The notes beneath the pieces are model-generated. The model saw nothing but the letters and a program-made list of their open reading frames with translations. It made no database searches and was not told where the DNA came from. Below, piece after piece: positions 1-20,500 of a stretch of 21,348 bases of DNA. Where the stretch lies: positions 1-21,348 of the IMG/VR virus record IMGVR_UViG_3300025132_000371; one strand, given 5' to 3'. The DNA comes from a virus. A program made the translations under genes and the position numbers. Every line of letters begins with the position of its first letter. Positions within the stretch are counted from its first letter, which is position 1.

Positions 1-783
1 TTCCCAATACCCTCTTTCTATTCCTATTTCTATTAAGTTTAATACTCCAGTTTCTATTGCCTTTTGCAAAGCTATAGAACCCACCTCATTCTCAGCAACA
101 CCTCCCTCTATCTCTACAAGTTCCGTGCCTTGCTCAATAAAACGAAAGATGTCCTGAGAAATACTTGTCGATAAAATATTTTTTGAAACTGCAGATTCCA
201 TTAATATTTCACCTGTAGATACAGAAACTAATCGCAATGATATAGTTACTACATCTTCTCGGTATTGTTTACTATTACCTATTCCTAAGTATCTAGCACC
301 AATACCACCAGATTGAATGTTTGTGTCATAACTAATAACTCCACCTTGTATTATAAGACCAGCAAATAATAAAGGTTGTAGTTTTTGGTCTTCTTCAAAG
401 TTCTCTCTGGTTGACCGGATTAGTTGTCTTTCTTTAGTAAGGTTATCTAAACCTACTCTTTCGACAACTCTAAAAAAATTACCATTAGCAGCATGTTTTA
501 AAGCTCTAATAAGCAACGCTTCTGGAGCTTGAGTAACTGCTGTACTAAATAAAGCAAAGCTACTATTACTTTTTCTTTGCCCTGTTAAATCTTGAAAGCT
601 ATCTCTATATACTGCTATTACTGGTTTCTTTTTCGCAGGAGGTAATTCAGCTAATTCAACTGATTGTAAATCTAAAATATTAGCAGGTAATATATTTCTA
701 GTTAGTGATAGGTCTTTGTTCTCGTTTAAGACTGCACAACTAGAAACTAAAATTGCCAATAGGAAGCTGTATAGTAGTTTCAT
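1..783 (-). CDS. csgG: CsgG-like outer-membrane lipoprotein pore (partial, 3' end cut by window edge)
   Basis: I read this gene by hand from the ATG at 783; 261 codons stay open to the left edge. Residues 1-16 are a lipoprotein signal (MKLLYSF..., lipobox V-S-S-C, Cys16); the residue after Cys is Ala, compatible with outer-membrane sorting. Similarity to Escherichia coli CsgG, compared from memory, runs the full length: QDLTGQ and FSTAV near 64-83, the LIRALK helix, ERQLIRSTREN near 118-128, SGGIGARYLGIG near 158-169, VSTGEIL near 188-194, and AIETGVLNLIEIGIERGYW at the end. About 15-25 C-terminal residues are probably missing. CsgG is known as a nonameric outer-membrane channel that secretes curli subunits. 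The start overlaps the end of the csgF-like gene by 44 bases, suggesting coupled translation. The family call is firm; the role in a phage (lysis pore, secretion, exclusion) is inference. Confidence 0.9.
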   Translation of the reverse strand, partial: MKLLYSFLLAILVSSCAVLNENKDLSLTRNILPANILDLQSVELAELPPAKKKPVIAVYRDSFQDLTGQRKSNSSFALFSTAVTQAPEALLIRALKHAANGNFFRVVERVGLDNLTKERQLIRSTRENFEEDQKLQPLLFAGLIIQGGVISYDTNIQSGGIGARYLGIGNSKQYREDVVTISLRLVSVSTGEILMESAVSKNILSTSISQDIFRFIEQGTELVEIEGGVAENEVGSIALQKAIETGVLNLIEIGIERGYWE

Positions 784-1258
784 TCCCATCACTATCCGTA
801 ATTACTAAAGTTATTATTCCATCTTCAACACTATATGTAATAGTGTTACCCTCTAAAGTTAGTGTACCACTTTCACTAGGAGTTTCTCCAAATAAGTTTT
901 CTACTAACTGTCTTGATAGTTGTGCATATATTCTAGATTCTAAATTTCTTATAAATCTTGCAAGTGTTGTATTTTCTTTGTCTCTTTTTATTTGTTCTTG
1001 TAAAGCTTTTAATTCTTCTTTGATAGACATCTTACGATTGAACTCTTGATTTTCTATAGTAAGATAATGTGCAGATGTACCTACACCACTAAAACTAGGA
1101 TTTTTAAATTGATGAACCATTTCATCTGCAAAAAGTTTAGAGTTCATCCAAAACACTAAAAACATTAAACCAAACATTGTAACCTGAATAATGGAGGCTA
1201 CTGTTATTTGTGTCATTGGATGTACATTTTCTATTTTATCAATCTTTCCTTTGGTCAT
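740..1258 (-). CDS. csgF: CsgF-like curli assembly protein, partner of the CsgG-like pore
   Basis: This 172-residue protein matches E. coli CsgF (from memory) at both ends. Its probable mature start DEMVHQFKNPSFSG parallels the mature CsgF start GTMTFQFRNPNFGG, the segment known to insert into the CsgG channel. The C-terminal part, from LARFIRNL (about 99) to the end (ITYSVEDGIITLVITDSDG, then TTIQLPIGN), parallels the CsgF neck and head. A long N-region and a hydrophobic stretch at about 18-37 could be a signal peptide cut after Ala44 (LFA), giving exactly seven residues up to QF as in E. coli. Between the two matching parts is a charged helical stretch at about 78-98. The start at 1258 overlaps the upstream gene by 20 bases; Met15 and Met28 are alternatives without a better ribosome site. 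It precedes csgG as in the curli operon. Its function in the phage is inferred. Confidence 0.82.
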   Translation of the reverse strand: MTKGKIDKIENVHPMTQITVASIIQVTMFGLMFLVFWMNSKLFADEMVHQFKNPSFSGVGTSAHYLTIENQEFNRKMSIKEELKALQEQIKRDKENTTLARFIRNLESRIYAQLSRQLVENLFGETPSESGTLTLEGNTITYSVEDGIITLVITDSDGNETTIQLPIGNFSF

Positions 1259-1586
1259 CTCTATCTGCCTTTGCTATTTTTTCTATATCTATTAAGTTAG
1301 GAACGCCTAACAATGTTTTTAAAAGAACATCTTGTCTAATACTTTGATTATCCATTGCTCTTACTCTGTCAATTAAACTGACAATAATGCCATATTGACT
1401 GTCAAGTTTAGTTGTAACTCTTTCTTCCATAGTATCTAAACTAACTTGCACTTTATCATCTAAAGTATCTAGTTTAGTTTCCATGCCATCTATGATTCTA
1501 TTTATAAGTTTCCATATAAATAAACCTAAACCTAAAGCTGCTGCTATAGGAAAGCCTACTTCACTTATTAACGCTACTGCATCCAT
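1239..1586 (-). CDS. Small membrane protein with coiled-coil tail, second holin-like candidate
   Basis: This 115-residue protein has one hydrophobic segment at about 8-28 (GFPIAAALGLGLFIWKLI) followed by a charged coiled-coil-like region (METKLDTLDDKVQ, then MEERVTTKLD) and a basic/acidic C-terminus. The layout resembles YvrJ- and BhlA-type holin-like proteins, but I cannot assign a family. It starts in a TAATG overlap with the holin-like gene and ends inside the csgF-like gene, so it sits between the inner-membrane lysis protein and the outer-membrane pore pair. It could be a second holin, an antiholin, or an inner-membrane connector to the pore. It occupies the relative position of csgE in a curli operon but does not look like CsgE, which is a soluble periplasmic protein. 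The gene is secure; its function is not. Confidence 0.75.
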   Translation of the reverse strand: MDAVALISEVGFPIAAALGLGLFIWKLINRIIDGMETKLDTLDDKVQVSLDTMEERVTTKLDSQYGIIVSLIDRVRAMDNQSIRQDVLLKTLLGVPNLIDIEKIAKADRDDQRKD

Positions 1587-2059
1587 TAGTCTTTAGTAGA
1601 ATTAGAAGCTCCAAAATAAAAACTTATAACTGCTGATGCTAAACCACCTAAATATCCTAACACTAAATTAATTAGAGCTTCGCTGTTTTGCTCTGGTGGT
1701 TGTAGTGTTACTAAGAATATATATCCTAGAAAGCCACCTACTGTAGCTATACCCATAATACGAGCAGTCCAATCCTTACTAAAGTTTTTTCTAGCATCTT
1801 GTGTATCTGCTACTTCTAATTTATATACATCAACATCAAGTTCTTTCATTTGAACTTCAAAAGCTTGTTCAGCTTTTTTAAGTTCTAGCATCTGTTCAGG
1901 TGTTGCTTCTGATATACCTTTTTCTATTGCTTTTGGATTATTAGGTACACCTAAAACTTCAGCTATCATATTAGCAGCCATGCCACCCATAGGACCACCT
2001 AAAGCAGTACCTAGTGTTGGAGCTACAGCACCTACTACATTTTTTAATAACGCTTTCAT
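1586..2059 (-). CDS. Holin-like protein with three hydrophobic segments (gene-transfer-agent holin type)
   Basis: The 157-residue protein has a Gly/Ala-rich N-terminal segment (about 8-36), a charged central region, and two clear membrane segments at about 98-119 (ARIMGIATVGGFLGYIFLV) and 126-149, the latter ending ASAVISFYFGAS. This architecture and the C-terminal SAVISFYFG motif fit the three-transmembrane holin family named after the Rhodobacter gene transfer agent. Such proteins open the inner membrane so that a cytoplasmic endolysin reaches the peptidoglycan. The gene lies two genes after the lysozyme. A strong ribosome site (AAGGAG at 2064-2069) overlaps the end of the preceding gene, so the start at 2059 is well supported. 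The central charged stretch is long for a holin. The family assignment is from recalled pattern, not a search. Confidence 0.75.
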   Translation of the reverse strand: MKALLKNVVGAVAPTLGTALGGPMGGMAANMIAEVLGVPNNPKAIEKGISEATPEQMLELKKAEQAFEVQMKELDVDVYKLEVADTQDARKNFSKDWTARIMGIATVGGFLGYIFLVTLQPPEQNSEALINLVLGYLGGLASAVISFYFGASNSTKD

Positions 2060-2060
2060 A

Positions 2061-2300
2061 TTACTCCTTATCTAAAGTTAATGTTCCCTCTAACATACCA
2101 TCAATAGAATTTAACACCCACTCAGGCATATCTTCTATTAATATATCCTCCTTCTCAGCTTTAACTAAATGTAAGCTGATTAAATCTTCATATAGACTTC
2201 TAAACTGTTCTCTAGTTACCCAAGGTTCATTAACTTTAGCTCTAGCTTTACAATCTAATCTATATGCCCTATCTAAATCTTTTTCTAAGTAGAGCAGCAT
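2061..2300 (-). CDS. 79-residue protein of unknown function in the lysis cassette
   Basis: The protein is short, soluble-looking and acidic towards its end. It has an N-terminal segment with LDRAYRLDCKARAK and then EPWVTREQFRSLYEDLI, and no signal peptide or membrane segment. The segment style is reminiscent of small conserved marine-phage proteins, but I cannot name the family. It overlaps the last 16 bases of the lysozyme gene and ends just before the holin-like start, so it is co-translated with lysis genes. No strong Shine-Dalgarno site precedes its ATG, which suggests coupling to lysozyme translation. A lysis-timing role would be a guess. Confidence 0.7.
   Translation of the reverse strand: MLLYLEKDLDRAYRLDCKARAKVNEPWVTREQFRSLYEDLISLHLVKAEKEDILIEDMPEWVLNSIDGMLEGTLTLDKE
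2064..2069 (-). promoter_or_regulatory. Ribosome binding site of the holin-like gene
   Basis: Minus-strand AAGGAG lies four bases before the ATG at 2059 and directly upstream of the TAA stop (2061-2063) of the preceding gene. It is among the best Shine-Dalgarno matches in the lysis cassette, and it suggests that the holin-like gene is translated efficiently and fixes its start. Confidence 0.7.
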
Positions 2301-2743
2301 TCTAATACCATCTTTTGTAATTCAATACTTCTTCTACCAACTTGTCCAAACCAACGACTATCTTCCATTTGTCTAGCCATCTCACTCCAGTTATGTTCTT
2401 TACAAGCCTTTAACATATTTTTAAATTTAGATAATCTTGTACCACCTAAATTAAAACACATATTAACTAATACTCTTTGAATAGGTTCTGGTAAGTTTTC
2501 AAAGTCTTCTTCGCTACCAAAGACATGTATTGTTTCTTTGTAATGTTTTTGAAAGTCTTGCTCATAATACATATCAACAACTTCTTGAGATACTTTAGTT
2601 CCTACTTCCCAAGAATATTCAGGGTCTTCAGGTTGACAAAGATGTCCAATACCTAAAGTTTTATAGCCTAAACTATCTTCGTATATTTTTAACACTTCAC
2701 CTTCGTGTCTTTTTATTTCAGCTTTACAAAGTTCTATATTCAT
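2285..2743 (-). CDS. Endolysin, T4-type lysozyme (glycoside hydrolase family 24)
   Basis: This 152-residue muramidase would cut the peptidoglycan glycan strand between N-acetylmuramic acid and N-acetylglucosamine. The catalytic triad of T4 lysozyme (Glu11, Asp20, Thr26) is present with identical spacing as Glu14 (IKRHEG), Asp23 (IYEDSLGY) and Thr29 (KTLGIGHL). The C-terminal half keeps the family pattern: QRVLVNMCFNLG near 89-100, a FKNML helix, and SRWFGQVGRR near 129-138, matching SRWYNQTPNR in T4. It is slightly shorter than T4 lysozyme (164 residues). There is no signal peptide or N-terminal anchor, so it should need a holin for export. It starts in an ATGA overlap with the 1351-residue virion gene, with GGAGG and AGGA sequences upstream. 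The assignment is firm. Confidence 0.93.
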   Translation of the reverse strand: MNIELCKAEIKRHEGEVLKIYEDSLGYKTLGIGHLCQPEDPEYSWEVGTKVSQEVVDMYYEQDFQKHYKETIHVFGSEEDFENLPEPIQRVLVNMCFNLGGTRLSKFKNMLKACKEHNWSEMARQMEDSRWFGQVGRRSIELQKMVLECCST

Positions 2744-5700
2744 AATCCTAATTCCTCCATTTGTGCTGAGTAAGGTTCTCCAGTAAAAGGGTCTACTCGG
2801 TCTGCTGGGTCTTCTTTGGTGTCGGGTACTTCTGGTCCTGTAATTAAACCACCTTCAACTTTTTGTTGTCTGATAAATCTTTTAGGTCTTTTTAAAATAC
2901 TTATAACTTCTTTTTCTGCTTCATTTAAATCATCTTCGTATTGTAATAAAGGTAAAATACTTAATTGATTGTATAATTTTTTATAGCTTCTTTTAAATTG
3001 TTGAAAACTCATACCAGTATAATCAGATGCATTGTATAAAGCTCTTATTTGTCCATCAGCTAAACGAATAGGTTGAAAAGTATTATCGTAAGATGCTAAT
3101 CCTCTTTTTTCTATAGAGCCTAAACCTGTACCTTGTATATTTTTAAGGGAGTTTTTAATATCTTTAGTGCTAACTCCTAAAGTTCTTGCTCCTTTTATAG
3201 CTCTATTTAAAGTTACATAGTCTCTATAATATGCTCTGTTAGCTCGTAAATAATTCTCTAATGCATCATCTATTGTTTCAACTTTTGATATATTTAATAA
3301 ATCTTGAGTGGCTTCGTAGCTTGTATTAAATTCTTTTATTTTGTAAAATAAACTTCTTTTTATATTATCAGTATTAACAGAAGTATAATTTAAGCCTGTT
3401 AATTTACCTATAAATTCTTCTGCTGCTTCTTCTCCAGATAATGTTCCCTCTTGTAACTCTCTAGTATACTTAGCCCCTTCTCTTAAAAATCTTGGTATTA
3501 AAACTTCTCCTACATATTTAGAACTTGCAAATGCATTATCTATAAAACTTTGATTTGGGTTAGTTCCGGGAATATCATTACCATTTTCATCTTGACCTAT
3601 AAATGCTCTTGCTAATCTGTCAGTAAATAAAGGCTGGTCAATAAAAGGTTGTACAAATGTTTTTAAAGATTCCATAGTTGCATTAGCTACTTTATCTGAA
3701 ACACTATCAAGTGATGATTCTGGGTCAAATATCTCATCCATAAAAGAATTATATACATTTAAAACCGGAGCATTTGGGTCAGAAAAACTTAAATCTACAA
3801 ATGAAATATTACCAAATTTATCTCTCTTATATCCTATAGTTCCATTTTTTGACCAATAAGGTAAGGCAACATCTTTTATAGCTTGTTCTTCTTCATCACT
3901 AACTCCAAAGGCATATTTAGTATATCTGTTTATACCTTCACTACCTAAATAACCAACAGCCATTTGACTAGCTAATCTTTGATAACCTCTTTCAATTAAT
4001 TCTGGATTACCTGACCTAATTTCTTCCATACCTCTAATTAAAGTATGATAATTATTTCTCCATCTTTCTGCAAAGAAAGAATAAAAATTACCAAATATAG
4101 GTATTTTTCTTAACTCTCTAGCACCTAAAGGAACTAAATTATAAGTAGGAAAAGTATTTCTAATAATAGTAGCTGCTTCTTTTTCTAATTCATCTATACT
4201 TCTATTAGGGAATGCTTTTTTAAGAACATTTAATTCTTTTTGAAAAGATGCTATTCTCCATATATCATCTTCTGCAACATAAGTTTTATTAAAAGTATCT
4301 GTTACTTTATTAAATAATTTTTTACTTTTATCTCCAAAAATTTCAACAAATCCTCTATCTAATCTTTTTGCCCAGTTAGCATCTGTTAAGTTTTCATTTA
4401 TTAATTTTTTAAATTCACCTACTCTAACATTTTGATTTACAATACCTAAATTTTGATATTTAACATATAAATCTTCTAAAGCTTTATCTTTATTAGGGGT
4501 TCTAGCATACAGTTCATTTGTTAAAGTTTTAAAAGAATCTCTAGTTTCTTTACTAAAAGGATTTAATCCATTTTGTGCCATAATAATACCACCACCAATA
4601 GTATTACGAGCATGAGTTGTAATACTATATACAGTTGCTACAGCTTGTCCTACTCCTTTAAAAGCTAAAAGAGGAGATAATAATCGTTCAAAAGTTCCTG
4701 TAGAAGTTTGCTCAAAAAATTTAGCTATTTCTTTTGTAGTTCTCATACCATCCAAAGAACCAAATTGTTGTCCATTTATAGTAGCAGCAACTCTTGTTCT
4801 TGTAGTTGGACTTGCTCCTTCTTTAAAAAACCATTTACCTTCACCCTTAGTAGCTAAATCATCATACATTTTTAAATCAGATAAATACTTACCAAGGGTT
4901 TCTATAGTAGTAAAAACAGTCTTACCTATATCTTGAGTTTTTCTTTCGCCAAAAAACTTTCTTAAAGGTTCATCTATTTCTTTTCTAGTTTGAAATAAAA
5001 TGTCTGCTTTTTTAAATCCATAAACTTTATCTAAATAAAAGTCTATATTTTTTGAATCACCTAATAACCCATCTACAATTTCTCTAGCTTCTATACGAGC
5101 ATTATCTAAAGTTAATTTTGCAGTATCATCAAATAAAGAAGCTTGAACAGATTTACTAGCTAACTTTTCAGCTATACTTTCTACAGCTCCCTCTATAACA
5201 TCTTGACTAGGTTTGTAACTAGGGTTTTCAAAATACTCATAACTTTTTCTTAAATATTTACCTATGTTACTTCTTATAACAAATTTTAAATCTTCAGGTA
5301 TATTTTTTTGTTCTAATAATAATCTACTTAAATCATCAATAGTATCTCTAGTTCTTACAGCTACATCTTGTAAACCTTTAGGTAACTCATTTAAAGGTAT
5401 TTCTTTAGATAAATAATCTTCTAACATTTTAGTAACTTGAGGAGCATTAAATTCACCTTCTTTAACAAGTTGTTTAGATTGATAGGTTAAATCATCTAAC
5501 AAATTTTTTGCTTGTTTTTCAAATCCAGCTTTAGCTAACTCACCATCTAAAATAATATTGTGCATTTCTGAACTATAATATCCTCTAGTAGTAAAGTATC
5601 TTCTTCTTAGATTTCTAATTCCATTTAAAATATTTGTAGTAGTTTGTTTAATTCTACCCCCTTCACTTGGGATAGGAACAAAAACATCATCATCTAATCT

Positions 5701-6795
5701 ATCTTCAATTTTACTAGGAGTAAAAGGTTTTAACTTTTCTTTTAATGGAGCTAACATTTTTTTAAAAGTTTCTTTTACTTCAGGATTACTTTTTATTCTT
5801 TTTAATACACTACCTAGTGCATCTTTAGTAAGTGATGCAGTTTTAAAAGCTCCTCCTATTATTCCAGTAAAAACTCCACCATCTAATAATAAAGTTAATC
5901 TTCTTTGAGCAGCACTACTATCTTCATCAGCATCTAAATACTCAAAAAAATCTCCAATAAAGTTATCATCAAGTTCATTAGTTTCTAATTTTTCATTTAT
6001 ATAATTAGCTACAATAAACATTTCAGGGTCATCTGCAAAAACAAGTTGTGATGATGCTTCAGCAGCAACTAAATCTTTACCTAGTTTAATTTTTTTACTT
6101 CGTAAAACTTTTTTCTTATCTATTTTTTTACCAGTTTGTTTTACTACATCATCAACATTAGAACCCATTAGTTTTCTAAACTTACTCAGACCCACAACAA
6201 AAGGCACAACACTAGTTGCACCTTTACCTATGATTCCTTCAGGTTCTTGAATAGTATTATTATCATAAATATCAGCACCTACTATTGGTCTTAATACAGT
6301 AGACACACCTTTATCTATACTATCATTTCTATTTTTATTAATTTGCTTAACTAATTCATCATAGGACATATTTTTATCTTGAGCCATTTTTTCTAAAACT
6401 TCTCTTTGTCCAAATGTATTTAAAACAGAACTTGTATCTCCTAGTAACTTAGCACTACCTGTAACTAACTCATCAATAATACCACCCATAGTTCTTCTAT
6501 AATTTTTAAAGGGTAAATTATCACCTACCCAATCTTTATAAGTTGGTTCAAATTTTTTTCTATAAAAGTCAGGGTCTGATTTTAATGGGTCAGGTGGTAA
6601 TTCAGGAGATGTAATCTTTTGTATATCACCACTTAAAGGTTTTACAGAATCTTTTGTAGCTATATCTACAAACTCTGCAAATCCAAATTCTTTTTGATAA
6701 GAAGGTGTAGTATTGTAAAGTCTTCTAAGTTCCTCTAAATCATTTACATTACCTATATTATTCTCATACTTATATTGTTCGTATAGTGAAGGCAT
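2740..6795 (-). CDS. Very large internal virion / DNA-ejection-type protein (1351 residues)
   Basis: This is the largest protein of the window and is not assignable to an enzyme family by eye. The first ~130 residues are polar. Long charged helical regions follow, then a hydrophobic Gly-rich segment at about 702-742 (LLSPLLAFKGVGQAVATVYS, then GGGIIMAQNG) and an aromatic segment near 895-925 (RKIPIFGNFYSFFAERW). The C-terminal tail, including GGLITGPEVPDTKEDPADR and PFTGEPYSAQ, resembles tails I recall from large structural proteins of marine podoviruses. Its place at the end of a run of putative internal proteins, just before lysis genes, fits a gp16-like ejection protein that crosses the host envelope. 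I see no lytic transglycosylase motif. No clear Shine-Dalgarno site precedes the ATG; the preceding gene stops 11 bases upstream. The virion role is inferred. Confidence 0.72.
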   Translation of the reverse strand: MPSLYEQYKYENNIGNVNDLEELRRLYNTTPSYQKEFGFAEFVDIATKDSVKPLSGDIQKITSPELPPDPLKSDPDFYRKKFEPTYKDWVGDNLPFKNYRRTMGGIIDELVTGSAKLLGDTSSVLNTFGQREVLEKMAQDKNMSYDELVKQINKNRNDSIDKGVSTVLRPIVGADIYDNNTIQEPEGIIGKGATSVVPFVVGLSKFRKLMGSNVDDVVKQTGKKIDKKKVLRSKKIKLGKDLVAAEASSQLVFADDPEMFIVANYINEKLETNELDDNFIGDFFEYLDADEDSSAAQRRLTLLLDGGVFTGIIGGAFKTASLTKDALGSVLKRIKSNPEVKETFKKMLAPLKEKLKPFTPSKIEDRLDDDVFVPIPSEGGRIKQTTTNILNGIRNLRRRYFTTRGYYSSEMHNIILDGELAKAGFEKQAKNLLDDLTYQSKQLVKEGEFNAPQVTKMLEDYLSKEIPLNELPKGLQDVAVRTRDTIDDLSRLLLEQKNIPEDLKFVIRSNIGKYLRKSYEYFENPSYKPSQDVIEGAVESIAEKLASKSVQASLFDDTAKLTLDNARIEAREIVDGLLGDSKNIDFYLDKVYGFKKADILFQTRKEIDEPLRKFFGERKTQDIGKTVFTTIETLGKYLSDLKMYDDLATKGEGKWFFKEGASPTTRTRVAATINGQQFGSLDGMRTTKEIAKFFEQTSTGTFERLLSPLLAFKGVGQAVATVYSITTHARNTIGGGIIMAQNGLNPFSKETRDSFKTLTNELYARTPNKDKALEDLYVKYQNLGIVNQNVRVGEFKKLINENLTDANWAKRLDRGFVEIFGDKSKKLFNKVTDTFNKTYVAEDDIWRIASFQKELNVLKKAFPNRSIDELEKEAATIIRNTFPTYNLVPLGARELRKIPIFGNFYSFFAERWRNNYHTLIRGMEEIRSGNPELIERGYQRLASQMAVGYLGSEGINRYTKYAFGVSDEEEQAIKDVALPYWSKNGTIGYKRDKFGNISFVDLSFSDPNAPVLNVYNSFMDEIFDPESSLDSVSDKVANATMESLKTFVQPFIDQPLFTDRLARAFIGQDENGNDIPGTNPNQSFIDNAFASSKYVGEVLIPRFLREGAKYTRELQEGTLSGEEAAEEFIGKLTGLNYTSVNTDNIKRSLFYKIKEFNTSYEATQDLLNISKVETIDDALENYLRANRAYYRDYVTLNRAIKGARTLGVSTKDIKNSLKNIQGTGLGSIEKRGLASYDNTFQPIRLADGQIRALYNASDYTGMSFQQFKRSYKKLYNQLSILPLLQYEDDLNEAEKEVISILKRPKRFIRQQKVEGGLITGPEVPDTKEDPADRVDPFTGEPYSAQMEELGL

Positions 6796-12680: not shown

Positions 12681-15600
12681 TTATTCTCCTTTTAAGTTAT
12701 TAATTTCAGATTGTAAGGCATCAACCTGTTCGTGTAATTCTTGTAATGCTTTAGTAAGTACAGCTATGTAAGGACTTGTTAATCCTTCACTAATTTGTTT
12801 GTAACCATTTTCATCATTTGAAACAAATTCAGGTAAAACTGTTTCAACATTTTGTGCAATAAATCCATAAGGCACATCTAAATTACTTTCTGTAAATGTA
12901 AAAGAAGATGGTTTTAGAGCCATAACTTTATCTAAACAACCAGTCACATCTTTTATATTTTCTTTTAATCTTTCATCAGAAGTAGCTGTAAATTGTGGTG
13001 AACCACCTGAACCAAATGTAATTTTACCACCAGCAGTACCACCTCCACTTATGTCAAAGTGTATGTATGTATTTGTAGAACTTGCTGTTCCATCTGATTT
13101 TCTTATAAACAATGCTGCATCAGTTGATGCTTCTACTATTGATACTTTTGCATTAGAAATTTGTGATGTTGTTCCTATTTGAACATCACCAGAAGAATCA
13201 ATACGCATTCTTTCTGTATTATTAGTACCGAATACAAAATCATTATTGGCTCTATTGTATAAAAATCCTACATCATCTGTTCCACTAGCAAAACCTTGTC
13301 CTAAAATTATTTCTTGTGCTTCAGCGTTACCATCAGCTCTTAAAGATAATGCAGCAGCACCAGAGGATTCACCAACTAACATAATTCTATCGCCTACTAC
13401 ATGCAGTGGTTCACTAGGACTGCTGGTGTTAATTCCAACATTACCAGTACTATCAATACGCATCTTTTCAGATAATGTAACTGCTGCTCCTGCACTACCA
13501 CTAGCTTGTGTAAAAAATTGGTGAATACCAGCTTCTTGTCTGTAAGCTGATGATTCATTAGCTTCAATGTACGCAAAAGCACCTGTATCAGAATCAACAT
13601 ACATATTATCTGTAACAAAAGTACCATCAAGACCATGAACTCCTGTAGCATTTTCACTTATTACTGAACCTTTTTGACCTATAAAAACTTGTGTCCAACC
13701 AGTATGTGTATCAGAAGGTGGAGTAGTTCCCATACCTATTGCACCAGTACTTGTCATTCTCATTCTTTCTGTATTATTTGTAGAAAGTGCTAATGTATTA
13801 CTAGCAGGTGCATGAATAAATACTTGGTCAGAAGTATTTGTAAAATGCAATTTATTAGTGCTTTTAATTTTTGCATCGCCATCAATAACTAATTTTTCAT
13901 CTGGACTACTTGTACCAATACCAACACCAGTAGAATCTATAATAACTCTTTCAGTACCACCAGTATCAAATCTTATTTTATCTTCATCACTTGATTCTTC
14001 TACTTGAACCATGGTATCACCATCGGCATCACTTAGTTGTGTAGCTGTTGTAATACTTGTATTAGTTGCAGTTATAGCTTCTACTGCTACACCTGAAGGT
14101 GGGGCTACTCCAAATGTTAAAGTAGTACCACTTACTGAAAAACTATCTTTGTTTTGATAAACACCATCAAAGTAAACTGATACATTGTTTTCATGTACTG
14201 GAGCAACTGATAATGTTAATGTAGTATCAGAACCATCTCCAGTCATTGTAGCTATTGAGTTATTAGAACCACCTACAGTTGTTGTACTATGATAGACTGT
14301 AATAACTCTACCATTAGCAGGAGCTGTAGCAAATGTTAATGTAGTTCCTGAAACAGAGTAAACATTCTGTGCTTGGAAAACACCATCAACAAATACCATT
14401 AAATTGTTTTCGCTGTCTGGAGCTGTACTTAATGTAAAAGTTGTATCACTTCCATCACCTGTAAAGATATTGGTGTCCATGTTTGTACCTGAACCACCAC
14501 CGGCTATTGCACCCCATTCAGTTGTATAACCTTCAAACTTACCTGTTTCTGAATTATATCTAAAATAACCTGCTGCTGGTGAAGAAGGTCTTTGTGCTGT
14601 TGTACCTACTGGTACATGTATTGAGTCTGTATTAGAACCTAAGTCAAGTGAAACATCTGGTGAAGTTTGATTGACACCTATTTTATTTTCACTTACATCA
14701 ACAAATAATACACCACTATCTACATTAACATCTCCAGAGAATGTAGCTGCATTAAATGTTGTAGGCACTATATTAGCACTACCATCAAAGCTTACACCAC
14801 CAATAGTTCTTGCAGTTGTTAAAGTAGCTGCTGAACCTGTAGTGTTTTGATTAAGAGTTCCTACTGTTAAATCTATCGTACCATCGGAGTCTTGATAATC
14901 AACTGTAATACCTGATTCAGTATTAGAGCTAAACATAGCACCAACTGTATCTTGTACAACCTCTGTTAGGTCTATATTAGCTGTACCATCAAAACTTACT
15001 CCGTGTATTGTTCTAGCTGTTTCAAGTGCTGTAGCTGTAGCTGCATTACCTGTTGTGCTTTGATTTAATGTACCAACTGTAAAGTCTAATGTACCATCAC
15101 TATCTTCGTAAGTTACAGTAATACCACTTTCAGTATTACTAGATACCATAGCTCCTACAGTATCTTGAATAACCTCTGATAAATCAATGTTAGCTGTACC
15201 ATCAAAAGATACACCATGTATTGTTCTTGCTGTCGCTAACGCTGTAGCTGTATCTGCCAAGGCTACAGAAATATTAGCTGTACCATCAAAGCTTGTACCA
15301 CCGATAGTTCTAGCAGTTTCTAAAGCTGTAGCAGTTGCAGCATTACCTGTAGTATCTTGGTTAAGTGTTCCAATAACAAAGTCTAAAGTATTATCACTAT
15401 CATCATAAGTTACTGTAACTCCTGTTTCTGTATTAGAAGTTACCATAGCTCCTACAGTATCACTAATTGTTTCTGCTAGTGTTGTACCATTTATTGTAAT
15501 AGCATCAGCTTCTAATGTACCATCAATGTCTACATCTCCTGATACATCTAATGTAGCTGCATCAAGTTCACCTGTTATAGTTATGTTTCTTGCACCTGTA

Positions 15601-16724
15601 AAGTCTTTGTTACCATCTACAATAATAGCTTTAGAAGCTTCTACAGTTCCTACTGTTGAAACATCTACATAATTAAGTTCTGTTGTAGTTGCTGTAACAC
15701 CATCAAGTAAGTTTAATTCTGTAGCTGTTGATGTAACTCCATCAAGTATGTTTAACTCTGATGCAGTACTGGTAACTCCATCAAGTATGTTTAGCTCTGC
15801 TGTTGTAGATGTTACACCATCCATTATATTTAATTCAGCAGTAGTTGCAGTTACACCATCCATAATGTTTAGTTCTGCTGTTGTTGCAGTAACTCCATCC
15901 ATTATATTTAGTTCTGCAGTTGTAGCAGTTACTCCGTCAAGAATATTAAGTTCGGCTGCTGTGGATGTCACTCCATCTAATATGTTTAGTTCAGCAGCAG
16001 TTGATGTGATTGCTGTGCCATTAAAGTTTATAGCATCTAAATATGCAACACCATCAATATATAAATCTTTCCATTCTTTTGAAGAACTACCTAAGTCATA
16101 TGTGTTATCATCATCTGGAACAATATTAGAATCTACTTCACCACCAAAAACAATATTGTCTGTATCAGCATCACCTAAAGTTAGTGTGCCACCATTAAAT
16201 GTTGTTGTACCTGTTACTGTAAGATTACCACCTACATCTACATTACCTGTAGTGGTAACAGTAGTAAATGCACCACTAGAAGCTGAGTTAGCTCCTATAG
16301 TAGCACCATCAACAGTACCACCATTAATATCAGCAGTATCAGCAACTAAAGCATCTGTAGTAACTGTACCATCAAAAAATGCATCTTTAAATTCAAGAGA
16401 GCTAGTACCTAAGTCAATATCATTATCTGTTACAGGAACTATAGCACCATCTGCTATATATAATTGTTGTACTGAACTACTAGATACTTCTACATAAAAC
16501 TCAATAAAATTATTTGTAGTGTCTATTAAGACTTTGTTGTTTGGAGAAGTTTCTCCTGCATCACCAATTAATCCTATAACTGGTCCAGAAGCTGTTGTTC
16601 CATCATGTGAGTGTCCTGTTGAGTTGTTAAATGCATTTACTAACTGGTTATATTCATTATTAAATAACGCAGCAGTAATTGTATCTCCATCTGCAAAAGA
16701 ACTTTGTCTTGTATATCCTGCCAT
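12681..16724 (-). CDS. Long tail fibre with C-terminal S74 intramolecular chaperone (1347 residues)
   Basis: This receptor-binding-type fibre has an N-terminal virion-attachment-like part (FNNEYNQLVNAFNN, GHSHDGT near 21-42). Then come nine 13-residue TAELNILDGVT-type units (about 238-356), three longer modules (about 421-655), two ~55-residue beta modules with FTGDGSDTTFTL and VFVDGVFQ (about 753-884), and beta repeats with NTERMR motifs. The last 99 residues are an S74 (endosialidase-type) chaperone: TSDERLKENIKDV near 1248, PYGFIAQNVETVLPE, and a terminal coiled coil (ELHEQVDALQSEINNL). In the known family this domain trimerises the fibre and cleaves itself off at a conserved Ser, here Ser1249. 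The gene begins in a TAATG overlap with the previous fibre gene, with GGAGAG upstream. The receptor is unknown. Confidence 0.88.
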   Translation of the reverse strand: MAGYTRQSSFADGDTITAALFNNEYNQLVNAFNNSTGHSHDGTTASGPVIGLIGDAGETSPNNKVLIDTTNNFIEFYVEVSSSSVQQLYIADGAIVPVTDNDIDLGTSSLEFKDAFFDGTVTTDALVADTADINGGTVDGATIGANSASSGAFTTVTTTGNVDVGGNLTVTGTTTFNGGTLTLGDADTDNIVFGGEVDSNIVPDDDNTYDLGSSSKEWKDLYIDGVAYLDAINFNGTAITSTAAELNILDGVTSTAAELNILDGVTATTAELNIMDGVTATTAELNIMDGVTATTAELNIMDGVTSTTAELNILDGVTSTASELNILDGVTSTATELNLLDGVTATTTELNYVDVSTVGTVEASKAIIVDGNKDFTGARNITITGELDAATLDVSGDVDIDGTLEADAITINGTTLAETISDTVGAMVTSNTETGVTVTYDDSDNTLDFVIGTLNQDTTGNAATATALETARTIGGTSFDGTANISVALADTATALATARTIHGVSFDGTANIDLSEVIQDTVGAMVSSNTESGITVTYEDSDGTLDFTVGTLNQSTTGNAATATALETARTIHGVSFDGTANIDLTEVVQDTVGAMFSSNTESGITVDYQDSDGTIDLTVGTLNQNTTGSAATLTTARTIGGVSFDGSANIVPTTFNAATFSGDVNVDSGVLFVDVSENKIGVNQTSPDVSLDLGSNTDSIHVPVGTTAQRPSSPAAGYFRYNSETGKFEGYTTEWGAIAGGGSGTNMDTNIFTGDGSDTTFTLSTAPDSENNLMVFVDGVFQAQNVYSVSGTTLTFATAPANGRVITVYHSTTTVGGSNNSIATMTGDGSDTTLTLSVAPVHENNVSVYFDGVYQNKDSFSVSGTTLTFGVAPPSGVAVEAITATNTSITTATQLSDADGDTMVQVEESSDEDKIRFDTGGTERVIIDSTGVGIGTSSPDEKLVIDGDAKIKSTNKLHFTNTSDQVFIHAPASNTLALSTNNTERMRMTSTGAIGMGTTPPSDTHTGWTQVFIGQKGSVISENATGVHGLDGTFVTDNMYVDSDTGAFAYIEANESSAYRQEAGIHQFFTQASGSAGAAVTLSEKMRIDSTGNVGINTSSPSEPLHVVGDRIMLVGESSGAAALSLRADGNAEAQEIILGQGFASGTDDVGFLYNRANNDFVFGTNNTERMRIDSSGDVQIGTTSQISNAKVSIVEASTDAALFIRKSDGTASSTNTYIHFDISGGGTAGGKITFGSGGSPQFTATSDERLKENIKDVTGCLDKVMALKPSSFTFTESNLDVPYGFIAQNVETVLPEFVSNDENGYKQISEGLTSPYIAVLTKALQELHEQVDALQSEINNLKGE
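14073..14468 (-). repeat. Two diverged copies of a ~55-residue beta module in the long fibre
   Basis: Residues about 753-811 and 824-884 of the fibre share FTGDGSDTT / MTGDGSDTT, a P-x-x-ENN turn, VFVDGVFQ / VYFDGVYQ, and VSGTTLTF followed by APP-like turns. The copies are clearly homologous at the protein level and diverged at the DNA level. Confidence 0.75.
14760..15464 (-). repeat. Three copies of a 70-75-residue module in the long fibre
   Basis: Residues about 421-655 repeat the order DTVGAM(V/F), SSNTE(S/T)G(I/V)TV, DSDGTLDFTVGTLNQ, TTGNAATATALETARTI, then GVSFDGTANI, three times, with an extra partial ARTIHGVSFDGTANID copy between the first two. The copies differ mainly by conservative changes, which suggests internal duplication. 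Confidence 0.8.
15657..16013 (-). repeat. Nine tandem 13-residue (39-base) repeats in the long fibre
   Basis: Residues about 238-356 are units of the form T(S/A)T(A/T)AELNI(L/M)DGV. The amino acids hardly vary, while the codons do (for example tta/ctt/ttg-type choices and aca/act for Thr), so the DNA copies are far less alike than the protein copies. The last unit is degenerate (TATTTELNYVDV). Confidence 0.85.
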
Positions 16725-18049
16725 TATTTACTCTCCAATTTTGTTTTTAATTCTTCTACTTCTGCTGTTAGTTCTTGTACAGCTTTTACTAACAATGGTG
16801 TTATTCTTCCATAATCTACACCTTGCATTTCATCACCATCTTTTTCACCATAAACACAGTCACTAAATATTTCATCAACCTCATGTGCTATAAATCCTTC
16901 AGCTTCTTCACCTGTTTCTTTCCAAGTAAATTTTACTGGATTTAATTTATTTAATCTTTCTAAACCATTTTGCATGGTTTCTATATTTTCTTTTAATCTA
17001 TAATCAGATGATGTGTTATAAACTGTTGAAGAACCACCTGATGTAATTGAGCCTACTGCTGTTGCACTGTCATTTTCAAACAAACATAAAAATCCATTAC
17101 CAAAAGATGATTTTCTTACTATTAGTCCAGCACCTGCAGTTCTTGTTACAATAGCATCTGATGACGCTTGTATTGATAAATCCTCTGAGCCTCTTACGCC
17201 ACTTGTCGTGCCAATAAGAACTTTACCACTAGCATTAATTCTCATTCTCTCGGTATCAGTGTTTGTATTAAAAACTATAGTATCTTCACCTTGTAGTTGT
17301 AATGCACCTGAACCAGTTGCACTAGTTAAACCTACTGAACCATACTCAACATTATTATCACCTCTAAGCATAAAATGTTTTTTACCATCACCATTTCTAG
17401 TTTGAATGATTGCACCAGTACCAACATTACTTACGCCATTAAATAAACCTGCGTATGTGCTGTTTCCTATAGATGTGCCTAGTTGTAACAGACCAGCACT
17501 TGTTAGTCTTGCATTTTCTGAAGTATTAGTTTGAAAATACAAGTAATTACCATTGTTATTGTATAAAACAGCACCTATATCATCATCATCCGTATCGCCC
17601 ATAACCATACCAGCAAGACTAGATGTGCCTGAAACTGCTGCTATTATTGAATGGTCGCTAGATTTTTGAACTTTTAATTCTCTGTCAGTAGTTGTAGTAC
17701 CTATAGAAACAAGACCTGAACTATTAATACGCATCCTTTCTGTATCACTTGTTCCAAAAGCTAAAGTGCCTGTACTTGGTGTAAGTAATGCTACTGCAGA
17801 AGCAGTTTTAAATTGAAAATCTGCATCTGATGCATTTGTAAAGTTAGCAAGAGTTCCATCTGCTGCTGAAACACTAAAAGGTGAGCTGGGTGCAGCACCT
17901 ACTCCTACTCGGTCATTACCACCATCAACAAATAACATGTGTGTTTTACCATTAGACTCAACTCTAAAATCAGCATCTGCTGAACTTTCATTAATTACTA
18001 CGCCACCATCTAAATCTACTAAAGATGCTGAAACTTTTGTTATCGCCAT
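16724..18049 (-). CDS. Second tail fibre with S74 intramolecular chaperone (441 residues)
   Basis: The N-terminus (MAITKVSASLVDLDGGVVIN) is short and unlike that of the long fibre. The shaft carries beta-helix-like units with repeated ERMRIN(S/A)SG..(S/L)IGT motifs near 104-117 and 268-281. The S74 chaperone covers about the last 95 residues: YNTSSDYRLKENIE near 344-357, the KFTWKETGEEAEGFIAHEVD segment, and a terminal coiled coil (LTAEVEELKTKLESK). Autocleavage would be expected at the Ser before Asp-Tyr-Arg (Ser348). A strong AGGAGA ribosome site precedes the ATG at 18049. The gene ends in a TAATG overlap with the long fibre gene. It is probably a second adhesin or a part of a branched fibre; which of these is not decidable here. 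Confidence 0.85.
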   Translation of the reverse strand: MAITKVSASLVDLDGGVVINESSADADFRVESNGKTHMLFVDGGNDRVGVGAAPSSPFSVSAADGTLANFTNASDADFQFKTASAVALLTPSTGTLAFGTSDTERMRINSSGLVSIGTTTTDRELKVQKSSDHSIIAAVSGTSSLAGMVMGDTDDDDIGAVLYNNNGNYLYFQTNTSENARLTSAGLLQLGTSIGNSTYAGLFNGVSNVGTGAIIQTRNGDGKKHFMLRGDNNVEYGSVGLTSATGSGALQLQGEDTIVFNTNTDTERMRINASGKVLIGTTSGVRGSEDLSIQASSDAIVTRTAGAGLIVRKSSFGNGFLCLFENDSATAVGSITSGGSSTVYNTSSDYRLKENIETMQNGLERLNKLNPVKFTWKETGEEAEGFIAHEVDEIFSDCVYGEKDGDEMQGVDYGRITPLLVKAVQELTAEVEELKTKLESK

Positions 18050-18052
18050 ATT

Positions 18053-19660
18053 TTATCTCCTGCCTGAAGGTATGTAATCTACATAAAAACCATTTATCGT
18101 ATATGGTGGTTTTGTGTCATCACTTATAATTGTAAAATTGTTACTTGTTCCACTTCCTTGTAATGGAACTCTTATTAAAGGATTATCTCCACCACCGAAT
18201 ACATTAGTATTAAATAATGCATCGCCAAACTTTGAAGGTGGATTGATAACTCCTAAATCAAATAAATCTGGTGGTTGTGGAACATCTGTATTACCATAAT
18301 CAAATCTAACTTGTACATCTGGTTCTGTTATACCTTCAGAACTTGCTGATACTCTAAGATAATGTAAAGTCTTTAATGTTCCTAAGTCACCATAATCATA
18401 ATTAGGTGTTTCAAATCTAGCTAATATATTACTACCATCAAAACTATTTCCTGTATCATGTTGATAAACAAAACCATTTGTATCTCCATGATAGTATTGT
18501 TCTACATTATTATTATCAAATCCTGAACCTATAGCAGTAACTTCTAATCCTCTTGTTTCTGACCATTGAAATCCATTTGGTCTTAATGTTCCTATAATTC
18601 CTTTTTGTTGTGTTTGTTCTAAACTTGTATTTGTATAAAATAATCTGTATTGTGACTTTTCTCGTAATACAACACTATCTATTACAAATGAATTTATGTT
18701 TTCTGCTAAGTTTGTTACTAAAGGTTGTATAGATTTACTAACTGTACCTAACTCGACATCTCCGATTCTTGCAGTACCGGCAACTGTTCTTAATCCATCT
18801 GGTGCTAAAAATATTAAGTCACCACCAATCTCTTGAATACTATAGCCACTTAAACAGCCAACATTCTTTGTAACAGGTACTATGGCTATATTACTTGAAT
18901 CATTTATATTTATTAATTTAAATATACTGTTTGTACAAAATATAAATAACTCATTACGGAATCCTCTGATTCCTTCTATCTGGTCTTCTACTACTATAGA
19001 ACCTGAACCAGTACCACTAAAGCTTGTAGGGTCTAATGTAGCACTAAAAAATATAGTACTTAAATTATCTTCAACTCCTGCAGCTATTAAATGTTTATCG
19101 TGAGTTGTAACATATTTAACACCCTTTGTTCCTGTTACAGTTATTTCTTCTGCAAAGAATGTTCTAGATGTTAATGCTCCCGTACCTTCCATTCTAAATA
19201 TGTAAGGTTTGTTAGCACCATCAGCTATAATAACTTGACCATAATCAAATGTAGCTCCATCAAATAATGTAAACTGACATTGACCTTGAGAAGTTCTTGT
19301 TAGTGTGCTTCTACCTGTAAAGGTACTGTAATTATCGCCACTACTTGATACAGAACTTCTACCTATATTTACCCAAGTCTGTCCATCATTAGTAAAAAAT
19401 ATTCCTGTACCTGCAGTAGCTATTACACCATCTGCATAAGGAAATACACCTAATATATTTGTTGTACCACCTGTAGGTTGTGTAGCACTTGTAGTACCAA
19501 ACTTTTGATACCCATTAATTCTTCTGTAGCCACCCTCTGTAGAAACCTCAAAGTTTCTTAAGTCTTTTGCAACTCCGGGAGTTTTAAGTAAATCAATTAC
19601 ATTAGATGATTCTACTAACCCTCCGTTTACTGCAACTGTATAAGGTTGACTTATTGCCAT
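18053..19660 (-). CDS. Tail protein resembling stabilisation / tail-tube B proteins (535 residues)
   Basis: The sequence begins with QPYTVAVNGGLVESSNVIDL and then has STEGGYRRINGYQKFGTT near 40-57, a pattern I recall from podovirus proteins annotated as DNA-stabilisation or tail tubular protein B. The rest is rich in beta strands, Gly and aromatic residues (GVFPYADGVIATAGTGIFF, then VEDQIEGIRGFRNELFIF near 220-240). No transmembrane segment or enzyme motif is visible. It lies downstream of the tail-tubular-A-like gene, separated by an S74 fibre gene, and upstream of two more S74 fibre genes, which suits a tail-nozzle protein to which fibres attach. The length lies between those of P22 gp10 and T7 gp12. 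The ribosome site is weak (AGTAGA). The family is inferred from recalled motifs. Confidence 0.7.
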   Translation of the reverse strand: MAISQPYTVAVNGGLVESSNVIDLLKTPGVAKDLRNFEVSTEGGYRRINGYQKFGTTSATQPTGGTTNILGVFPYADGVIATAGTGIFFTNDGQTWVNIGRSSVSSSGDNYSTFTGRSTLTRTSQGQCQFTLFDGATFDYGQVIIADGANKPYIFRMEGTGALTSRTFFAEEITVTGTKGVKYVTTHDKHLIAAGVEDNLSTIFFSATLDPTSFSGTGSGSIVVEDQIEGIRGFRNELFIFCTNSIFKLININDSSNIAIVPVTKNVGCLSGYSIQEIGGDLIFLAPDGLRTVAGTARIGDVELGTVSKSIQPLVTNLAENINSFVIDSVVLREKSQYRLFYTNTSLEQTQQKGIIGTLRPNGFQWSETRGLEVTAIGSGFDNNNVEQYYHGDTNGFVYQHDTGNSFDGSNILARFETPNYDYGDLGTLKTLHYLRVSASSEGITEPDVQVRFDYGNTDVPQPPDLFDLGVINPPSKFGDALFNTNVFGGGDNPLIRVPLQGSGTSNNFTIISDDTKPPYTINGFYVDYIPSGRR

Positions 19661-19672
19661 ATTTATTCTACT

Positions 19673-20500
19673 TTAGCCTTCTAGTGTTGTTATTCTTGCT
19701 TCTAGTTCTTGTATTGTTTTTACCAGTAATGGTACAAGTTTGCTTTGGTCTATACCTTGATATTCTGGATTTCCTTCACTATCAACTGCATCTTTTTCAC
19801 CTGTAATAGCTTCAGGCACTATACTTGAAACTTCGTGAGCCAAAAACCCATCAACTAATGTATTTGTTTCATCAGATTTAAAATTAAATCTAGCAGGTTT
19901 TAATTGTTTTAATCTTGTGGTTGCATCCCAAGTGTAGTCTACATTTTCTTTTAATCTGTAATCTGAAGATGTGTTAAATGCTGTTGCAGTTGTTGTTACA
20001 GTTATACTTCCCACATTTGAAGCATCTCTTAAAAATTCTAAAACACTTCCATTACTATTTTCTCTTTTAAAATAACCTGATGCACCATTGAATCTTGATG
20101 AAACTATATAATCATCAGCACCACTGACTCCAAAACCTGAATGTCCATCACTTAATAGTGTAAGAGGAGTTTGAGTAGTTCCCACCAATAAATTGCCCGA
20201 ACTATCAATACGCATTCTTTCTGAATTTGCAGTATGAAATGTCATTATATCTGAACCGGGTAAAACAATACCAGAATCTGTATCTGCATCACCTAAATAT
20301 TGGTCAGCATAAATTGTTCCAACATTTGTTAAATCAGCTTCACTAAAACTTGTAGCACCTAAAGTATTAGCTGCTGCTGTGGAAGTTATGCCTGTTGAAA
20401 ATGTCACAAGCTCATCACTACCAATAGTTATAGCTGTTGCATTACTTCCGTCTACTATTCCGGGGGTACTTGATAGTTCTACTGGTACTTTTGTTGTCAT
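19673..20500 (-). CDS. Short tail fibre with S74 intramolecular chaperone (275 residues)
   Basis: A short N-terminal part (VPVELSSTPGIVDGSNATAI) is followed by a single SERMRIDSSGNLLVGTT unit near 93-109 and then by the S74 chaperone from about 175: FNTSSDYRLKENV, VDGFLAHEVSSIVPEAITGE, QGIDQSKLVPLLVKTIQELE. The C-terminal domain is clearly closer to that of the 441-residue fibre (same NTSSDYRLKEN, same LLVK-x-(V/I)QEL end) than to that of the long fibre. The small shaft suggests a stub fibre, a fibre connector, or a decayed copy, although the frame is intact. A strong TAGGAGA ribosome site precedes the ATG. The gene sits between the two tail-tube-like genes. Confidence 0.83.
   Translation of the reverse strand: MTTKVPVELSSTPGIVDGSNATAITIGSDELVTFSTGITSTAAANTLGATSFSEADLTNVGTIYADQYLGDADTDSGIVLPGSDIMTFHTANSERMRIDSSGNLLVGTTQTPLTLLSDGHSGFGVSGADDYIVSSRFNGASGYFKRENSNGSVLEFLRDASNVGSITVTTTATAFNTSSDYRLKENVDYTWDATTRLKQLKPARFNFKSDETNTLVDGFLAHEVSSIVPEAITGEKDAVDSEGNPEYQGIDQSKLVPLLVKTIQELEARITTLEG

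Follow-up and report, generated by a model that had tools for sequence, protein, structure and literature searches.

The curli operon of Escherichia coli is organized as csgDEFG/csgBAC. Curli clusters have also been reported in phages, namely in pelagimyophages (PMC7029224), in phage Melnitz (PMC9004378) and in HTVC023P-type podophages (PMC9599517), and csgGF is mentioned for temperate viruses of sediments (PMC9636769). According to PMC9599517, the type VIII secretion system (T8SS) of HTVC023P-type phages has the gene order 'HK'-csgF-csgG-curlin-FecR-(curlin)-adenylate cyclase and no CsgE, a 'histidine kinase' gene, at times two of them, invariably stands in front of the cluster, and CsgE is absent from viral and alphaproteobacterial modules. 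PMC7029224 describes CsgE as dispensable. For the Melnitz genes, PMC9004378 proposed a pinholin- or secretin-like function, partly from the absence of csgA/B.

In a literature search mostly without subscription journals, we found no report of a curli module in HTVC103P/HMO-2011-like podophages, and a word look-up in the accessible text of PMC9038755, PMC10504331, PMC12753301 and PMC8528129 gave no curli terms. The locus described here, which resembles the HTVC023P-type and the pelagimyophage/Melnitz clusters in gene order, adds a phage lineage to those with a known viral curli system, one near the HMO-2011-type group that is described as dominant and broadly distributed (PMC9038755).

The csgF-csgG end of the window and its continuation

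The window, i.e. the whole stretch of DNA that was analysed, is a 21,348-base contig fragment, in which the genes are long, mostly abut or overlap, and are carried by the minus strand. Read from right to left, it encodes tail and structural proteins, a virion protein, a lysozyme, a small protein, a holin-like protein, a small membrane protein (named cl2 here), CsgF and CsgG. The features of its left end are as follows.

1..792, minus strand: csgG homologue, an outer-membrane lipoprotein pore, truncated at the window edge; Pfam CsgG, PDB CsgG and continuation in locus L002
740..1258, minus strand: csgF homologue; Pfam CsgF, apparent signal/anchor segment and QFKNPSFSG stretch
1239..1586, minus strand: cl2, small membrane protein; phrog_18771, N-terminal membrane segment and coiled coil by eye
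1586..2059, minus strand: holin-like protein; phrog_1544, of unknown function
2061..2300, minus strand: small protein between the lysozyme and holin-like genes; PHROG search without match
2285..2743, minus strand: endolysin (phage lysozyme); PF00959 (4.5e-9) and phrog_7 endolysin (3.5e-19)
2740..6795, minus strand: large virion protein of 1351 residues; phrog_22602 virion structural protein (4.1e-24)

The overlapping csgF-csgG pair claimed in the initial annotation was confirmed by the profile searches that it had proposed, in which both proteins scored well over the Pfam cut-offs: CsgG matched Pfam CsgG at 1.1e-50 (172.3 bits; cut-off 20.8) and aligned with solved CsgG chains in PDB (6e-44), and CsgF matched Pfam CsgF at 1.3e-19 (71.1 bits; cut-off 25.8). 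The score of CsgF against the NCBIfam CsgF equivalog was far below the cut-off (17 bits versus 171), and a sequence search of solved structures found no relative of this protein. A lipobox was detected by an ad hoc pattern in 78 of 81 CsgG sequences. The claimed position after lysis genes in the same orientation also holds, with the lysozyme, the holin-like protein and the small membrane protein encoded upstream on the minus strand. The virion protein gene overlaps the lysozyme gene and starts a gene chain that runs into csgF-csgG. Late expression of csgF-csgG is likely, because these genes overlap and are co-oriented with structural and lysis genes. A promoter scan yielded 24 candidates versus 30.3 expected from shuffled sequences, i.e. 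the shuffle level, and an Rfam search of four sources gave no match. The homologue of the holin-like protein in locus L065 matched the 3TM gene-transfer-agent holin family weakly (0.053, below the cut-off). Elsewhere in the window, three tail-fibre-like proteins (12681-16724, 16724-18049 and 19673-20500) have C-termini that look alike by eye, and the first contains tandem copies of 'TAELNILDGVT' and has a long open frame opposite it on the other strand (15748-16497).

The window end truncates csgG 21 residues short of its end. Locus L002, which shares 10,792 bases with the window at 100% identity and extends past its edge, encodes the last 21 CsgG residues, a 238-residue curlin-like protein, a FecR-domain protein and, on the other strand, a partial cyclase. 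The initial annotation had stated that no curli subunit was visible; this was not borne out and is explained as a window-edge artefact, because L002 continues immediately past csgG into the curlin-like and FecR genes. A lysis pore without cargo was rejected as a candidate on the same ground. The statement that csgE is missing was upheld by a search of 11 related records (the record of the window itself lay outside that search), none of which contained CsgE, with a positive E. coli control.

The L002 curlin-like protein has an apparent signal peptide and GDSNTFTI-type repeats, of which six copies were counted with a pattern written after reading that sequence. Its match to Curlin_rpt PF07012 (0.0034, 17.7 bits) is below the cut-off of 20.7, and its matches to NCBIfam CsgB (.0018) and CsgA (.0023) are both far below the cut-offs. 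PF07012 was detected at E<=0.1 in 27 of 39 curlin-like members (best 6.4e-5); per record, a Curlin_rpt match was obtained at E<=0.001 in 3 of 11 and over the cut-off in 2 of 11. The AlphaFold model is all-beta (pLDDT 77) and has four phage-protein matches at E<=0.001, among them three named 'Curlin associated' (best 1.2e-5). In a PDB fold search with this model nothing was significant (best E 0.058), and the curlin-like profile matched no PDB chain. Two cysteines near the C-terminus are invariant among the 39 members. We name the cargo gene curlin-like, and by its sequence it appears to be a strongly diverged curlin. The CsgG and CsgF families are common to this locus and the E. coli curli operon, whereas here no CsgE was found, a FecR protein and a CHASE2 cyclase are added, and the curlin-like protein is strongly diverged.

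The FecR-domain protein of L002 has an apparent signal peptide and matches PF04773 at 6e-10. In locus L004, which aligns in two pieces with most of the leftmost 2.8 kb of the window at 93-96% identity, the cyclase gene is complete (CHASE2 2.1e-27, cyclase 1.5e-20) and adjoined by an Hsp20 gene. Of the cyclase motifs searched, motifs 1 and 2 are present in all 43 proteins and a strict motif 3 in 28 of 43; the L065 cyclase shows GSDVNLAAR at the third motif. The best explanation of the csgF-csgG pair is that it is the contig-cut left end of a module, cl2-csgF-csgG-curlin-like-FecR-CHASE2 adenylate cyclase, inserted between the lysis cassette and ribonucleotide-reductase genes.

Linkage of the module and the phages that carry it

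A scan with the window CsgG gave 242 viral loci, of which the best 80, with CsgG identities of 76-100%, were examined. Linkage profiles were built from these same 80 loci, and a locus was counted only if it had enough sequence on the relevant side. Among these best 80 of 242, csgF was found upstream of csgG in 75/75 testable loci, cl2 before csgF in 67/67, the curlin-like gene after csgG in 66/66, and the FecR gene with csgG in 58/58. The cyclase was present in 40/40 (28 on the csgG strand and 12 inverted), accompanied by Hsp20 in 20 of these 40, and a holin-type gene (the 1586..2059 type or an alternative, cl19) in 45/45; the window-type lysozyme was found in 31/45 by a profile that misses other lysozymes, e.g. 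that of L080. The module genes are under purifying selection: dN/dS values, from 15 pairs each, were 0.08-0.33 for csgG, 0-0.29 for the curlin-like gene, 0.03-0.51 for FecR and 0.08-0.76 for csgF, the two top csgF values involving L020, which was scored on the longest of several csgF-type frames. Four csgG-bearing contigs of 49-54 kb (G004, G005, G008 and G010, of loci L050, L051, L063 and L069) have no Pfam phage lysozyme, which is present in the other seven csgG-bearing contigs searched; these four encode the alternative holin-like protein, so another hydrolase is expected in them.

The large terminase subunit of the L004 contig is 63-66% identical to those of the Pelagibacter phages HTVC115P, HTVC103P and HTVC104P, and the three best matches of a structural protein of the window (18053-19660) are from HTVC103P/104P/115P (38-43%). 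By contrast, the large virion protein has no HTVC103P-type match; its top-ranked record is a Pseudoalteromonas phage (24.6%). From the terminase and structural genes, the window phage appears to be an HTVC103P/HMO-2011-like marine podophage, and HTVC103P-type phages are described as pelagiphages whose morphogenesis and packaging genes are HMO-2011-like (PMC8528129). A SAR11-type host is likely, because these terminase and structural matches are to Pelagibacter phages. A second podophage lineage, grouped by shared genes (L065, L067, L080 and L081), carries the module in another context, and the terminase of the L080 contig is 59-61% identical to those of HTVC027P and 023Pt_psg01, i.e. of the HTVC023P type.

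In the csgG trees, whose rows were labelled from shared gene clusters (terminases were compared with known phages for the L004 and L080 contigs only), the HTVC023P-type sequences are nested inside the HTVC103P-type ones, and a single clade was not rejected by the AU test (p 0.448). Phage CsgG and 32 bacterial rows are split by one branch (100/98) when L125, L127 and L131 are dropped as long branches; with these kept, the bacteria need two changes. The bacterial set comprised 39 loci, of which L122, L128, L132 and L133 are absent from both trees. Among these 39, no donor was found (best identity 49%), and the phage profiles detected no FecR, cyclase or cl2 gene near csgG in the DNA fetched. A record of 1,499 bases named 'Salmonella phage S.Kent 1-2-1' (OR851715.1) contains a csgG at 43% identity; its size and host suggest that it may be bacterial and not phage DNA.

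Compared with the published HTVC023P-type system, the phages described here have an HTVC103P-like terminase, one curlin-like gene was seen, the cyclase is inverted in 12 of the 40 testable loci (best 80 of 242), and no kinase-family match was obtained for the gene occupying the 'HK' position. The likeness to pelagimyophages and Melnitz (PMC7029224, PMC9004378) lies in cl2 copies followed by csgF-csgG-curlin-FecR-cyclase: HTVC008M and Melnitz have the order cl2-cl2-csgF-csgG-curlin-FecR-cyclase, with a second curlin gene in Melnitz. Their csgG is 41-46% identical to that described here and, unlike here, the module sits between ssb and baseplate/tape-measure genes. A scan with HTVC008M CsgG (best 80 of 194 loci) gave csgF in 76/76, the curlin gene in 59/59, FecR in 41/41 and the cyclase in 17/18 testable loci (missing in L283), and cl2 in 73/73, as two copies in 62 and one copy in 11.

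The cl2 proteins have about 95-116 residues and, by eye, one membrane segment and a coiled coil. The family, which includes window 1239-1586, L082:6724-7286 and L083:6969-7607, precedes csgF in three phage lineages and also occurs without csgG in the slot of L155, L185 and L193. Three members searched against Pfam matched no kinase family at E<=1, whereas phrog_18771 matched 12 of 12 members and the holin family phrog_4898 matched 2 of 12 (best 1.1e-4; window member 0.029). Judged from position and copy number alone, cl2 is probably the published 'histidine kinase' (PMC9599517), and our results bear on that label. Among 75 loci with cl2 (two unscorable and seven classed by eye), the long cl2 occurs with the 3TM-type gene in 52/52 and the short cl2 with the alternative holin-like protein in 21/21; L005 has the short cl2 although its CsgG is 97% identical to that of the window. 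The cl2 protein looks like a lysis-cassette protein travelling with the curli genes.

The slot between the lysis cassette and the reductase genes

Because NrdB flanks the module, loci were also collected with NrdB as the anchor. From at least 600 loci the best 80 were used, a sample that is biased by closeness to the module-bearing phage and shares several contigs with the csgG scan. Among the best 80 of at least 600, csgG was found in 16; 27 loci span the interval from nrdB to the virion protein gene, and csgG is present in 10 and absent in 17 of them. A lysozyme- or holin-type gene is kept in 16 of the 17 csgG-less sisters (L177 has neither by these profiles), so lysis seems not to need the module. 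Replacement of a lysis gene by the curli genes was considered and rejected, because the csgG-less slot is either short or filled by another gene pair, as judged from an inspection of these slots that covered lipoproteins by an ad hoc pattern.

In 9 of the 17 csgG-less sisters (L176, L179, L187, L191, L192, L194, L198, L200 and L205; e.g. L191:7096-10336), the slot holds another apparently secreted pair, and 8 have neither this pair nor csgG. One member has 640-790 residues, conserved cysteines and an acidic middle; the other is an Asn/Thr-repeat protein of 310-396 residues. Both have apparent signal peptides in the sequences that were read. The large protein was found in 24 of the 80 NrdB loci (best 80 of at least 600), in 0/80 csgG loci (best 80 of 242) and in 0/80 HTVC008M-scan loci (best 80 of 194), and no locus among those scanned contains it together with csgG. 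None of four large proteins exceeded a Pfam cut-off (best 0.011), none of three matched PHROGs, and a search of 50,697 phage records with one of them found nothing. A profile of the nine gave only weak matches to cathepsin L/silicatein in PDB (E 0.0028-0.049), and a fold prediction for a 638-residue member was unusable (pLDDT 32). The Asn/Thr-repeat protein matches phrog_20531, of unknown function, in 3 of 3 tested; its profile also matches HTVC115P (L134), which may reflect low complexity. The presence of alternative secreted cargos in one slot speaks for a surface function. Sisters with the curli genes, with the other secreted pair or with neither constitute a natural experiment, and comparing these slots makes the gain that a phage draws from curli testable.

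Possible roles of the module

We consider it probable that the locus is an accessory curli-type (type VIII) module with its own curlin-like cargo, which it would export as an extracellular fibre or adhesin. Late in infection, CsgG would form an outer-membrane pore capped by CsgF; the curlin-like protein would reach the periplasm via its apparent signal peptide, exit through the CsgG pore and persist as a fibre or adhesin on the outside of the cell. Envelope sensing and cAMP production may fall to the FecR protein and the membrane cyclase. Candidate benefits are holding sibling cells, masking the surface and excluding rival phages. Weighing against the fibre are the L002 curlin match, which is below the Pfam cut-off, the model, which has no significant likeness in PDB, the absence of CsgE and the single curlin-like gene seen in these podophages. 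The absence of cell clumping with Melnitz, reported in PMC9004378, also counts against it.

The initial annotation had suggested that CsgG-CsgF might form a late outer-membrane pore that helps to burst the cell, a role that could also include the timing of lysis and that we regard as improbable. The same-strand, overlapping chain with the lysozyme and holin-like genes favours such a pore, as do the frequencies of the holin-type gene and the window-type lysozyme given above (45/45 and 31/45 testable loci, best 80 of 242). In the HTVC023P-type context (L065, L067 and L080), the module also abuts a holin-like gene and a lysozyme, and cl2, which is tied to the holin type, precedes csgF; this tie is the strongest remaining hint of a link to lysis. 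A lysis role could still follow from it and from the placement beside lysis genes in both podophage lineages. A pore for lysis does not, however, account for the curlin-like and FecR genes that always follow csgG where testable (66/66 and 58/58, best 80 of 242), nor for the slot-spanning loci without csgG (17/27, best 80 of at least 600), of which 16 keep a lysozyme- or holin-type gene and 8 lack the other secreted pair as well. The pair lies beside lysis genes in both podophage lineages but not in HTVC008M and Melnitz, in which the 8 kb around csgG contain no annotated lysis gene, many neighbours being 'hypothetical'. In the HTVC008M scan (best 80 of 194), the podophage profiles gave a lysozyme match in 3/80 loci (L242, L254 and L259); with 4 kb on both sides, 0/13 matched the podophage lysozyme or holin profiles, which could miss other lysozymes. 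The published argument for Melnitz, 'incomplete operon, hence lysis pore', used the absence of csgA/B, yet two curlin repeat proteins appear among the annotations of the Melnitz record, and PMC9599517 had partly corrected this argument by finding curlin genes in myophages; the cargo gene found here bears on the same argument. Taken together, the module linkage, the csgG-less sisters with lysis genes and the myophage placement do not support a lysis pore, and a surface-fibre device is more likely.

The absence of CsgE in 11/11 records would fit a CsgG pore that, lacking its plug, admits nutrients or cofactors, as considered in PMC7029224 and PMC9599517. We give this channel little credence, since it leaves unexplained why every testable locus with csgG also encodes a curlin-like protein and CsgF. 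A shield against other phages, formed on the infected cell by the exported protein or the pore, was suggested in PMC9599517 and agrees with a slot filled by differing apparently secreted proteins, as expected of surface-competition genes. As an explanation in its own right it seems unlikely to us, as the probably late expression would limit its benefit; it could also be the purpose of the secretion device described above, and is in that sense not only opposed to it. More tentatively, and with some doubt, we suggest that the slot may exchange alternative secreted surface devices, the curli module on one side and the unrelated pair with a small membrane protein on the other. Such devices would be co-expressed with lysis genes, with cl2 as a holin-linked partner, and fibre-coated cells or debris near the end of infection would change who meets the progeny.

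The cyclase differs among these phages in two further respects. The cyclase and Hsp20 block is inverted between clades (L004:12655-14885 versus L053:12539-14828), and this inversion would place the cyclase on the reductase strand instead of the late one. For the catalytic domain, at least two types of sequence were seen, FTDVRGFT and FTDIMGFT.
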